Source of the DNA: Aliiglaciecola lipolytica
Lineage (GTDB): Bacteria; Pseudomonadota; Gammaproteobacteria; Enterobacterales; Alteromonadaceae
Assembly: GCF_018860635.1 (NCBI RefSeq)
Contig: NZ_JAHKPT010000017.1
Location: forward strand, 215,226 to 279,225
Length of the DNA stretch: 64,000 bases
Direction of reading: 5' to 3'
Part shown: in pieces, positions 19,610-30,554 of the stretch
How positions within the stretch are numbered: the stretch's first letter is position 1
How the letters are laid out: the number at the start of each line of letters is the position of its first letter
Made by a program: the position numbers and the translations under genes
The notes under the pieces: generated by a model
The model's database searches: none
What the model saw: only the letters and a program-made list of their open reading frames with translations
What the model was told of the DNA's origin: nothing

Positions 19610-21259
19610 ATGGCAGCTAAAGAAGTACGTTTTTCTGATGACGCTCGCAACAAAATGCTTGCAGGCGTTAACATTCTTGCTAACGCGGTAAAAGTTACTT
19701 TAGGACCTAAAGGTCGTAACGTTGTTCTAGACAAATCTTTTGGCTCTCCTACCATCACTAAAGATGGTGTATCTGTTGCTAAAGAAATCGAGCTTGAAGA
19801 TAAGTTTGAAAACATGGGCGCACAGATGGTTAAAGAAGTTGCGTCTAAAGCAAATGACGAAGCCGGTGACGGAACAACGACTGCAACTGTACTAGCGCAA
19901 GCGATTGTAACTGAAGGTTTGAAATCAGTTGCTGCGGGTATGAACCCAATGGATCTTAAGCGCGGTATCGACAAAGCTGTTTTGTCTGCGGTTGAAGAAC
20001 TTAAAAATCTTTCTACTAAATGTGCTGACAGCAAAGCAATTGCTCAGGTTGGTACTATCTCTGCAAACTCTGATTCAGAAGTGGGTAACCTTATCGCTGA
20101 AGCAATGGACAAAGTAGGTAAAGAAGGTGTTATCACTGTAGAAGAAGGCCAAGCACTTCAGAACGAACTAGAAGTGGTTGAAGGTATGCAGTTTGATCGT
20201 GGTTACCTATCTCCTTACTTCATGAACAACCAAGAAAATGGCACTGTTGAATTAGACAGCCCATACATCCTTTTGGTTGACAAAAAAGTCACTAACATCC
20301 GTGAATTGCTACCAACTCTAGAAAGTGTTGCTAAAGCATCTAAGCCGCTATTAATTATTGCTGAAGATGTTGAAGGCGAAGCTCTAGCTACATTGGTTGT
20401 TAACAACATGCGCGGTATCGTTAAAGTTGCAGCTGTTAAAGCGCCTGGCTTTGGTGACCGTCGTAAAGCAATGCTACAAGACATCGCTACACTAACTGGC
20501 GGTACTGTTATCTCTGAAGAGATTGGTCTTGAGCTAGAAAAAGTTCAACTAGAAGATTTAGGTACTGCAAAACGTGTTGTTATCAATAAAGACAACACTG
20601 TAGTAGTTGATGGCGCTGGTGACGAAGAAGCGATTAAAGGTCGTTGTGCTCAAATCCGTGGTCAAATCGAAGAATCTTCTTCTGACTATGACAAAGAAAA
20701 ACTTCAAGAGCGTCTAGCTAAATTAGCTGGCGGTGTAGCAGTCATTAAAGTTGGTGCTGCAACTGAAGTTGAAATGAAAGAGAAAAAAGCACGTGTTGAA
20801 GATGCACTTCACGCTACTCGCGCAGCGGTAGAAGAAGGCGTTGTAGCTGGTGGTGGTGTTGCGCTAGTTCGTGCAGCAGCTAAATTCGCTGACCTAAAAG
20901 GTGACAACGAAGACCAAACTCACGGTATTAAACTAGCACTACGTGCTATGGAAGCTCCTCTACGTCAAATCGCATCTAATGCTGGCGCAGAAGCATCTGT
21001 AGTAACTAACGCAGTTAAAAACGGTACTGGTAACTTCGGTTACAATGCAGGTAACGACACATACGGCGACATGCTAGAGATGGGTATTCTTGACCCAACT
21101 AAAGTAACTCGTTCTGCACTTCAATTTGCAGCGTCAATTGCGAGTCTTATGATCACCACTGAAGCGATGATCGCAGATGCTCCAGCTGATGACGCTCCTG
21201 CTATGCCTGATATGGGCGGCATGGGCGGCGGTATGGGTGGAATGGGCGGCATGATGTAA
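19610..21259 (+). CDS. groEL: Chaperonin GroEL
   Basis: 549 residues, full length, starting [17 protein letters not shown] and ending in the Gly-Met-rich tail [14 protein letters not shown]. The ATP-binding motif [14 protein letters not shown] is present. The stop codons TAA-TAG and the last two Met codons lie inside a 15-bp sequence (21248-21262) that recurs at 30540-30554. An element has therefore integrated at the 3' end without altering the protein. Codon use is that of a highly expressed core gene, in contrast to the element that follows. Confidence 0.99.
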
Positions 21260-21262
21260 TAG
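21248..21262 (+). other. attL: left copy of the 15-bp core at the groEL stop codon
   Basis: GGCATGATGTAATAG encodes the last Gly-Met-Met of GroEL, its TAA stop and a following TAG. Identity to the right copy starts and ends exactly with these 15 bases. Because the stop is inside the core, either recombination product keeps groEL intact. Confidence 0.85.
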
Positions 21263-21331
21263 CAAAATGCCTCTATTAGCCCTTATAAATCAATGGTTTA
21301 CGGTAACTGTATACAGTAAAGTAGACACAAG

Positions 21332-21346
21332 TGTAGACAGTGATGT
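21332..21346 (+). repeat. Left arm-type repeat of the element (TGTAGACAG box)
   Basis: TGTAGACAGTGATGT lies 70 bp inside attL. A near copy, TGTAGACAGTAATGT, lies 54 bp inside attR in the same orientation (14 of 15 bases equal). Matched short repeats just inside both attachment sites are typical of integrase arm-binding sites. A further half copy (AGTAGACAC) precedes it. The binding role is inferred. Confidence 0.5.
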
Positions 21347-21380
21347 GGTCATTGATTAAGGTCTCAAAGAAGTCTTAAAG

Positions 21381-21410
21381 AAGGCGTTGGGTTAATCCTC
21401 AGCGCCTTTT
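21381..21410 (+). terminator. Terminator inside the left end of the element, now serving groEL
   Basis: AAGGCG pairs with CGCCTT around a GC-containing loop and is followed by six T. It lies 120 bp beyond the groEL stop, inside the element, and just before the convergent first gene of the element. It probably ends groESL transcription now that the original terminator is 9.3 kb away (30591-30618). Confidence 0.65.
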
Positions 21411-21419
21411 TTGTTTATC

Positions 21420-28316: not shown

Positions 28317-29153
28317 TTAGGCACTTTTCATTAATTTCATCTCATATTCGACTGGTGAGATGTTACCCAGTTTATGATGTCGTCGTTTTTGGTTATAAAA
28401 CGGTTCGATGTAATCGATAATATCTACCTTGGCTTCTTGTCTCGTTTTATATCTTCTGTAATTTACTCGTTCAGACTTTAGACTTCTAAAGACACGCTCT
28501 GTCACTGCGTTATCTAGGCAATTTCCTGCTCGACTCATACTAGGTTGAATGCCTAATTCACGCAAACATTGCTGAAACGACTCACTGGTATATTGAGCAC
28601 CTTGGTCTGAATGAAATATAATCCCAGTTAACGGCTCCCGTTTATTCACGGCTAGGCGTATTGCTCGCATTGTTAATTCTGTATTTGGTTTATCTGAGAA
28701 CGCCCAACTAATTATTTTTCTGGAACATAGATCAACGATGACCGCAAGGTACAACCAACCTTGACCTGTTCGTATGTACGTTATGTCTCCTGACCAATGG
28801 GTGTTCAGTTGCTCAGGGTTAAATTGTCGATTTAAATGATTTGGCACAATGATTGATGCTTTTCCTGCCCACGGATACTTATGTAATCGAGGGCGTTTAG
28901 CTATCAGTTTACACTTTCGCATTAATCGTCGTATTTTATAACGACCCACTCGGTAACCTTGATGATTAAGCTCTATCATCATTCTGCGACTACCATAAGT
29001 CGCATCCATTTCGTTGTGAAGATGCTTTACCGCGGCTTCTAAACGAATTTCATCTGGTTTTAACGGTTTAGGTTTTGCGTTAAAGTAAAACGAGCTACGC
29101 GCCAATTTAAAACAACGACAAATATGTTGAACACTAAACCCAGCCTTCTTCAA
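28317..29153 (-). CDS. IS3-family transposase OrfB (DDE catalytic part)
   Basis: 278 residues counted from the TTG at 29153; the frame is open further upstream, through QRQQVALKLKKAGF. It contains an HTH_21-like region (RLEAAVKHLHNEMDATYGSRRM) and the rve integrase core with DITYIRT (first Asp), FHSDQGAQYTS (second Asp) and DNAVTERVF (Glu). It is normally made as a fusion with OrfA by -1 frameshifting at an A6G motif (29207-29213 on the minus strand), and the intervening -1 frame is free of stops. Confidence 0.93.
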   Translation of the reverse strand: MKKAGFSVQHICRCFKLARSSFYFNAKPKPLKPDEIRLEAAVKHLHNEMDATYGSRRMMIELNHQGYRVGRYKIRRLMRKCKLIAKRPRLHKYPWAGKASIIVPNHLNRQFNPEQLNTHWSGDITYIRTGQGWLYLAVIVDLCSRKIISWAFSDKPNTELTMRAIRLAVNKREPLTGIIFHSDQGAQYTSESFQQCLRELGIQPSMSRAGNCLDNAVTERVFRSLKSERVNYRRYKTRQEAKVDIIDYIEPFYNQKRRHHKLGNISPVEYEMKLMKSA

Positions 29154-29155
29154 CT

Positions 29156-29458
29156 TTAGCGCGACTTGCTGCCTTTGTTCATTTCGATAGCGAAGAAGGC
29201 TGACGCCTTTTTTAATAAGTTGTTATCACTTTCTAGCTGTTTAACTTGTTTCTCTAACTCTTGAATTCGTTTTTGCTCAGCTGTAATTGCTGAGGCTTTT
29301 GGAGTGATACCACGTTGCTCTTCTTTATATTGTCGTAACCATTTCTGTAATGTTGAATAACCAACATTCATAGATTCAGCAGCTTGCTTAACTGGATACC
29401 CTTGAATGGTGATCAGCTCTACACATTCCAATTTAAATTCAGTTGTAAACTTTTTCAT
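29156..29458 (-). CDS. IS3-family transposase OrfA (helix-turn-helix part)
   Basis: 100 residues. The N-terminus MKKFTTEFKLECVELITIQG and YSTLQKWLRQYKEE form the IS3 OrfA helix-turn-helix, and a leucine-zipper-like helix (RIQELEKQVKQLESDNNLLKKA) follows. The slippery heptamer A-AAA-AAG lies in the LLKKA codons, correctly phased for -1 frameshifting into orfB. Confidence 0.93.
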   Translation of the reverse strand: MKKFTTEFKLECVELITIQGYPVKQAAESMNVGYSTLQKWLRQYKEEQRGITPKASAITAEQKRIQELEKQVKQLESDNNLLKKASAFFAIEMNKGSKSR

Positions 29459-30471
29459 TTTTACCTCGTTGGTTTTGGTTATGATACCTCCAACAAAGTG
29501 TCTTGAAAAATTAGACCATTACAGTCTTACCCTTCTCTATGTATAGAGCTGTAACACCACCTTCTTGAATCACGTGTTTCTTCTTGATGTTGCATAGTTC
29601 ACTGATACGACAACCAGTAAATATACCAAGCTCCACCAGCAAACTATATACAGGCTTCTCCCAAGTGTGACTACGAATAAGACTAATCTCTTCATTAGTA
29701 AATGGGATACGTTTATCTGTTTGGTCTTCTTCAGCATCTGAGTACTTGTGACCAACAAACGGATTATTACCTTCGACTTCTTCCATAGTCTCAGCGTACT
29801 CCCAGACCATCTTCAACCTACTTATAGTTGCCTGTATGGTTGCCTTCTTGTACGACTTACCCATGTGCTTAATGAAAGAGTAAACGACCTTCCTAGTGAT
29901 GTCCTCAAGCGCGATGTCTGCTTGGTCTAAGTAGTCGAATGTCTTGAAGCAATACTTGCTGAACTCTGAGGCTGACTTCTCGACCTTCTTCAAGGTTTCT
30001 TCAGTCTTATTGCTCCCCCAATCTTCTTTCCACATCTGGACAGCTTCAGAAAGTCTGAGTCTGTATTGAAGGCTGTAATCTCGTTTACCATTTACAGTCA
30101 TGTATGCTTGTAGTTCTAAATTAGCACCTCTAGCTTCTAGCGCTTCTGGATAGATGCCATTGTCCCAATCTGAAGGGTGGAACTTACGGTCTCTCTGCAT
30201 CTCCTTCACTAGCTCTCTGAAGCGTTGCCCTTCCGTGTAAGTGGTTGAACGTAGAGATTTGTCTTCAAGTTGACCGTTAAGAACGTCTCGTTTCTTCTTG
30301 GCCTCCCTGATATCACCTGTATCTAAACTCGTATTTATCATTGTTTGATTTGGGTATTGGTGAGCCAGATGTTTAGGAACTCTACGTTGATACCACCAGA
30401 TATTGCCTCTGAGTTTAAGGTGCTTTAAGTCTGTCTTTTTGTTCATCTTTAAGTGAGTTTGTAGCCATAAA

Positions 30472-30486
30472 TGTAGACAGTAATGT
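30472..30486 (+). repeat. Right arm-type repeat of the element
   Basis: TGTAGACAGTAATGT, 54 bp inside attR, matches the left copy at 21332-21346 in 14 of 15 bases. It lies directly upstream of the integrase start, as expected of an integrase-binding site that could also repress the gene. Confidence 0.5.
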
Positions 30487-30539
30487 AATCATAACTCATT
30501 GAATGTCAATAGGAATAATGGCTGCGTGAGAGTTTTCTT

Positions 30540-30554
30540 GGCATGATGTAATAG
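30540..30554 (+). other. attR: right copy of the 15-bp core
   Basis: GGCATGATGTAATAG, identical to the end of groEL at 21248-21262. What follows (ATTTTTCTATTACC and a strong terminator) is most likely the original downstream flank of groEL. Confidence 0.85.

Follow-up and report, generated by a model that had tools for sequence, protein, structure and literature searches.

The stretch of the Aliiglaciecola lipolytica genome analysed here, 64,000 nucleotides of contig NZ_JAHKPT010000017.1 (the window, whose numbering is used throughout), very probably contains a ∼9.3-kb integrative genomic island that entered the 3′ end of groEL by site-specific tyrosine recombination. The gene lies on the plus strand (19610..21259) with its reading frame intact, and its 3′ end is the attachment site. 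The left core, attL (GGCATGATGTAATAG; 21248..21262, plus strand), comprises the Gly-Met-Met-stop of groEL and three further bases, and is repeated exactly as the right core, attR (30540..30554, plus strand), 9,292 bp away. The right core is situated 94 bp beyond the start (30446) of a tyrosine integrase gene on the minus strand. A perfect 15-bp repeat at the groEL stop and 9.3 kb further on had been proposed in an initial annotation of the window, and two exact copies were confirmed.

The repeat is absent from the opposite strand of the window, its pair was reproduced in none of 100 shuffles of the window, and it totals two copies in the whole 5.03-Mb draft genome (36 contigs). The repeat alone is not decisive, because 143 15-mers recur on the plus strand of the window, nearly all of them in short tandem repeats; the deciding evidence is the empty site.

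Empty sites in relatives

Nine genomes of the genus were searched, one of which (G002) belongs to the same species. The site in G002 is empty, with a single copy of GGCATGATGTAATAG; all 315 bases compared as far as the end of the core equal the left side of the window locus, and 296 of 300 bases from the core onward equal its right side. A search with the N-terminal piece of the integrase gave no match in G002. The two GroEL proteins are identical over 549 amino acids, in agreement with the earlier proposal that the core, holding the last Met codons and the stop, leaves groEL unaltered. A terminator-like hairpin located beyond attR in the window (30590..30619, plus strand) follows groEL directly in G002 and belongs to the native groEL flank; in the window it is replaced behind groEL by a terminator-like hairpin carried by the element (21376..21413, plus strand; one found against 0.1 expected). 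The comparison of groEL 3′ flanks suggested in the initial annotation thus gave one 15-mer followed by the right flank of the window with its terminator. Because the empty site is from the same species and GroEL is identical, the groEL 3′ end is the attB of an integrated element, as had been claimed. Direct repeats at both ends, an empty counterpart in a relative and a tyrosine integrase gene next to one end all mark it as an integrative element of the tyrosine-integrase type.

Empty and occupied sites were also found outside the genus. Within the genus of G277 (Salinimonas chungwhensis, Alteromonas), 27 of the 59 genomes contain the flank of the distal core, at 33 places in all. Of the 20 places that were read, 17 lie directly behind groEL and three behind an integrase. 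The 26 genomes of a Pseudidiomarina genus revealed one site that is occupied and one that is empty.

The integrase clade and its choice of groEL

We surveyed 395 genomes of the family using the N-terminal integrase piece as single query (E ≤ 1e-10), with no selection for groEL. Matches were obtained in 18 genomes, and 13 of these, including that of the window, had groEL in the fetched stretch; in each of these elements the integrase is located at the end remote from groEL and is oriented towards it. Related integrases beside groEL, for which the initial annotation had proposed a search, are found in many other genomes. The remaining matches comprised a 4.3-kb contig whose end is the sequence found behind groEL in other members of its genus (G381), three genomes in which the integrase is ∼100–120 bp from tRNA-Pro(GGG) (G021, G031 and G088), and G246, assigned to neither group. 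A sample of the order (394 genomes, another query) gave nine groEL-linked genomes out of 16 matching. In the class sample, three of 369 genomes matched profile A1 at 1e-40 (the window's, the linked G1121 and the unlinked G031); this profile was built from linked integrases and so favours linked matches in this search and in that of the genome_contigs collection, a bias from which the 395-genome survey is free.

The genome_contigs search yielded 76 named loci, 23 of which (L053–L075) are full or nearly full relatives. For 17 of the 23, groEL was within the fetched locus. In two Halomonas loci it is 12–14 kb away, the Marinospirillum link is provided by contig L178, which shows groEL and then the left end of the element, L054 is linked through its flank, and L065 and L070 are short contigs. 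Only one of the other 53 named loci, L081 from a Methylococcales metagenome-assembled genome (MAG), shows a groEL tail.

An integrase tree placed the 24 linked sequences on one side of a branch with support of 99/94 and the 13 unlinked ones outside, where long branches were flagged. Linkage changes once on this tree, compared with 10.9 times in shuffles, and the integrase piece of the window pairs with Salinimonas (support 100/100). Hosts of the groEL-linked clade are marine and salt-loving bacteria (Alteromonas, Colwellia, Idiomarinaceae, Shewanella, Vibrio and Halomonas). More distant integrase relatives are located elsewhere, three of them beside tRNA-Pro. In L043, L044 and L045 the distance of the relative from tRNA-Pro(GGG) is ∼100–120 bp, and sister groups of one integrase family thus have different targets.

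Conserved ends of the elements

The anatomy of 25 elements, that of the window and 24 others, was compared. Their length from core to core ranges from 3.4 to 13.8 kb. In 24 of the 25, a distance of 84–142 bp separates the distal core and the beginning of the integrase match; the exception is L081, with its integrase in fragments. The portion of the core common to all 25 is TGATGTA. In eight elements (L066, L067, L069, L071, L074, L040, L042 and L182) the bases to the left of TGATGTA differ from groEL (CTTTGATGTA or GTTTGATGTA), consistent with an exchange of strands within TGATGTA.

A site resembling that of integration host factor (IHF), AATCAATGGTTTA, was matched by pattern in the window at 21288..21300 (plus strand), 28 nt behind the groEL stop. 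In 18 of the 25 elements the IHF consensus WATCAANNNNTTR is matched exactly at a distance of 28 or 29 nt from the groEL stop; at the same position, six of the remaining seven show one mismatch and one shows two, as judged by eye. It was present in 34 of 5000 random 80-nt stretches of element interior and in one of 25 native right flanks, that of L059, where the flank is the left end of a second, tandem element. The window element is a member of the clade by its integrase, its TGATGTA core, this IHF-like box and its serine recombinase.

Short repeats were also found near both ends. In the window, GTAGACA / TGTAGACA repeats at the left (21321..21339, plus strand) and TGTAGACA at the right (30472..30479, plus strand) are probable arm sites of the integrase. 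With motifs picked from the ends themselves, TGTAGAC was counted 33 times at the ends of 11 elements and once in 62,947 interior bases, TGTTGAC 10 times at the ends of two elements and once in 19,664 interior bases, and TGTAGG[AC]A 10 times at the ends of two elements and twice in 26,851 interior bases. A looser, TGTRKNNCG-like pattern in seven elements of the second subclade gave 29 matches at the ends and eight in 42,287 interior bases, and L055, L058 and L182 had fewer than two terminal matches. Because the repeats change with the integrase subclade, the pattern suggests that they are integrase arm sites.

Some loci contain more than one element or core. Positions 8301–8440 of L033 (= L059) show a distal core and then the left end of a second element of the other subclade, a tandem pair behind one groEL. 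L180 (Alginatibacterium; 12570 and 15231) has a third core 2.66 kb past the element, with the native flank and its terminator repeated behind both cores and no integrase between them. In L057 (1836–6502) a second segment of 4.7 kb, without an integrase, lies between cores behind the first element.

Core genes and exchangeable cargo

The 25 elements contain 189 open reading frames (ORFs) of at least 60 amino acids. Every element has one tyrosine integrase, and a serine recombinase was identified in 23 of the 25 (22 by clustering, and L069 separately) and not found in L058 and L081. No further protein family is present in more than six of the 25, and among 12 unlinked integrase loci two gave a serine recombinase match. 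The distances among the integrases and those among the serine recombinases are correlated over 22 elements (r 0.724; 0 of 9999 permutations in a Mantel test uncorrected for shared ancestry of the hosts), and the serine recombinase would thus appear to be largely co-inherited with the integrase. A conserved res site, sought as inverted repeats upstream of the serine recombinase, was not found across the family.

When nine pairs of elements were compared, conservation was found mainly in three blocks, at the left end, around the serine recombinase and around the integrase; the content of the two intervals differed. L057 and L064, for example, match each other over their leftmost 2.1 kb, beyond which L057 has a RelA/SpoT-like PDC-S33 gene and L064 an AriA-like ATPase gene; L060 and L075 differ in both intervals. 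Two exchangeable cargo slots flank the serine recombinase, and turnover of the cargo is evident.

Cargo of the relatives, chosen by size and recurrence and not at random, was analysed with Pfam (40 proteins) and PADLOC (19 proteins), and about half of those in PADLOC were matched, some weakly. The matches include restriction and modification functions, with type I systems in two Halomonas elements, an EcoRII-like enzyme and its methylase in L060, a methylase with an HsdR-N-like part in L056, a McrA-like type IV enzyme in L055 and a C5 methylase in L075. Others are AbiLi/AriA-like ATPases (L081 and L064), PDC-S33 (L057, with L061 in the same cluster and having the same Pfam domain), PDC-S42 (L071) and an RNase H (L053). 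The cargo of the family is swappable and often of an anti-phage, defence-like kind. A phage capsid-family protein is found beside a HATPase protein in L040 (10793–13928), an element in which the scanned proteins include no other phage gene.

Genes of the window element

The second core gene (25982..26575, minus strand) encodes a serine recombinase of the type of the gamma-delta/Tn3 resolvases and the invertases. It matches Pfam Resolvase (7.8e-34) and phrog_125 (4.5e-55), with gamma-delta resolvase as nearest solved chain (1.5e-21). To its left are six cargo genes, all on the minus strand. Four of these have a relative in the Salinimonas element, namely orf275 (21420..22247), which has a weak HTH_3 match, orf250 (22854..23606), of unassigned function, and the small proteins orf62 (24463..24651) and orf64 (25610..25804). 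The others are orf128 (22300..22686), a KilA-N-like protein of the phage transcription regulator family phrog_129 with a marginal PADLOC match to PDC-S22 (E 6e-4), and orf248 (23662..24408), also of unassigned function. Between the two recombinases, in slot B, lies orf271 (27036..27851, plus strand), for which DUF2971 is a sub-threshold match, PADLOC gave no match and a search of 295 genomes of the order gave no relative. In eight other window proteins PADLOC gave only the marginal PDC-S22 and a match of the C-terminal part of the recombinase to a CARF model, and NCBIfam returned recombinase and transposase models only. The cargo of the window is without a clear defence match in PADLOC and NCBIfam, in keeping with the initial description of it as mostly unknown genes. 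By its position alone, orf271 would be the defence candidate of the window.

Several cargo genes are preceded by short direct repeats (22268–23660 and 24427–24490), namely GTTATGGACTAATG and a unit of 22 bp, AACTTAGTTGCTGATAACTAAT, which are perhaps operators of one regulator. In mid-element (24651–25610), ∼1 kb has no convincing gene and many GTCTTA-like words.

The integrase gene placed by the initial annotation beside the right copy is indeed on the minus strand just inside attR; what that annotation had taken for one gene is split by an insertion sequence (IS) of 1,237 bp (28287..29523, minus strand) with a target duplication of GTC. The transposase is of the IS3 family (NF033516, 315.9 bits against a cut-off of 160), and the draft genome contains one full-length copy and seven partial matches, several of them at contig ends. 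The two integrase pieces were searched separately. In Pfam the N-terminal piece (29524..30446, minus strand) matches DUF6538, SAM-like domains and the start of the catalytic domain (Phage_integrase), and the C-terminal piece (27926..28286, minus strand) matches the end of Phage_integrase; both match phrog_1. The usual catalytic residues (R, K, H-x-x-R, H/W and Y) fall on both sides of the break. Because the IS splits its integrase, the window copy is probably stranded, unable to leave unless an integrase were supplied in trans.

Relation to known elements

Elements of a comparable kind have been described. Phage-inducible chromosomal islands (PICIs) of staphylococci, SeCISE48 and others, attach at the groEL 3′ end (PMC8125051). 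They share with the window element the same gene end, island size and an integrase, and are phage-packaged satellites of Firmicutes (PMC8125051), whereas the groEL elements of Gammaproteobacteria have a serine recombinase and no satellite genes in the proteins scanned. The groEL 3′ end is accordingly used as a landing site, as the initial annotation stated, and is not new in kind (PMC8125051). The dusA islands of Vibrio and SGI1 at trmE are also tyrosine-integrase islands at gene 3′ ends (PMC8409611); these and the tRNA islands follow the same strategy, in which a conserved gene regains its 3′ end from the att core, and differ in target gene and gene set. Three of the nearest non-groEL relatives of the integrase lie, like tRNA islands, beside tRNA-Pro.

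Integration of the Bxb1 type is reportedly one that interrupts groEL1. Mycobacteriophages Bxb1, U2 and Bethlehem have their attB in groEL1, and so resemble the window element in using a chaperonin gene; they differ in being full phages with a serine integrase (PMC2884959). GInts, which carry a ginABCD operon encoding three putative integrases and a small helix-loop-helix protein, are likewise site-specific and widespread and combine conserved recombination genes with variable cargo (PMC5385486); the groEL elements, with one tyrosine integrase and one serine recombinase, lack this gene set. The available text of PMC2491623, PMC6309461 and PMC4119200 has no bearing on the groEL site. Searches of the open literature, which did not cover subscription papers and preprints, yielded no description of a groEL family in Gammaproteobacteria, and the staphylococcal PICIs were the only elements encountered at the groEL 3′ end. 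Elements of this kind are known already. The family itself appears to be new, together with its plan of two recombinases and its cargo slots.

Alternative explanations

That the repeat arose by chance or from assembly, as a draft in 36 contigs might allow, is extremely improbable in view of the same-species empty site and of the same architecture in many independent genomes; the empty site rules out a chance repeat. A full prophage was likewise rejected, as no structural genes were seen among the window proteins scanned. The split integrase could be read as the sign of a dead remnant with a relic repeat and decaying genes. We regard this as quite unlikely, since the cores are still identical over 15 bp, the frames of the serine recombinase and of other cargo are open, the IS is the only break found and the integrase is unbroken in many relatives.

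The way in which the element is transferred bears on two further explanations. Many small islands at gene 3′ ends travel by mobilization in trans, and the broad spread across orders calls for a transfer route; an integrative and mobilizable element (IME), moved by a conjugative plasmid or an integrative and conjugative element (ICE), would provide one. However, no relaxase or type IV secretion system match was seen in 10 window proteins or in the 40 relatives' cargo proteins scanned in Pfam (oriT not searched), and we consider this route rather unlikely; ICE/IME as a class was rejected on the absence of a relaxase among the scanned proteins, again with oriT not searched. A PICI-like satellite, induced and packaged by a helper phage, would agree with the attachment site and similar size of the staphylococcal islands (PMC8125051), with the phage-type regulator phrog_129 in the window and with the capsid protein in L040. 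Yet the 10 window proteins scanned include no match to primase, replication, terminase or capsid functions, nor to the interference and packaging genes typical of PICIs, and the capsid is a single case among the cargo proteins of relatives, 40 of which were scanned in Pfam. The integrase piece has no relative in 50,697 phage records, and its 21 matches in viral contigs are remote, none with groEL, making a satellite unlikely. Used alone as query, the piece found no confirmed relative in genome_contigs or viral_contigs, and its plasmid matches were weak (24–26% identical).

Several observations weigh against parts of the preferred reading, that of an island inserted by its own tyrosine integrase. 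The G+C content does not mark the element (0.401 vs 0.412). In the order sample, G031 (twice), G470, G516, G646 (four copies), G686, G692 and G726 are unlinked in the fetched stretches, and G031 scores 1.4e-51 against profile A1 yet sits at tRNA-Pro. L070, a 3.2-kb MAG contig, has a member-like integrase, and the sole groEL found in its MAG precedes its own terminator, unoccupied; the flank on this contig is similar to the Alteromonas one, so the contig may be foreign to the MAG. In the second subclade, core and groEL have only 7–9 bp in common. The arm and IHF sites are pattern matches only, and the terminal-repeat counts describe and do not test, because the motifs were picked from the ends counted. 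The serine recombinases of L066 and L182 are 26% and 33% identical to those of the nearest integrase relatives, and the recombinases of L056 and L072 pair best elsewhere; the first two are exceptions to co-inheritance, and the last two are so in part. Finally, excision and the circle are steps that we infer.

Proposed mechanism and significance

The integrase, a λ/XerC-type tyrosine recombinase with an N-terminal DUF6538, would pair attP of a circular form with attB at the groEL stop. The strands would be swapped within the ∼7 bp TGATGTA. These bases specify the last part of the Gly-Met tail together with the stop codon, so that groEL keeps its product; its transcript would then be ended by the terminator that the element brings. 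IHF probably bends the left arm, the ends of the circular form being folded by the integrase together with IHF. Excision should need the integrase and usually also a directionality factor. The serine recombinase would most simply resolve multimers of the circle or tandem copies, exchange of cargo being a bolder reading. As a tentative possibility, the elements may form an undescribed and widely distributed two-recombinase family in which a groEL-specific integrase anchors and a serine recombinase resolves multimers or exchanges cargo, with the site serving for the exchange of defence genes among marine Gammaproteobacteria.

Since groEL is essential and nearly universal and its Gly-Met tail is conserved, the docking site hardly varies between hosts, and the element would fit many of them. 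Elements at this same gene end are present in two distant groups, the staphylococci (PMC8125051) and the Gammaproteobacteria studied here. The integrase clade, TGATGTA and the IHF-like box behind groEL together constitute a searchable signature for finding cargo, much of which is defence-like or of unassigned function, and the clade offers candidate integrases for marine bacteria.

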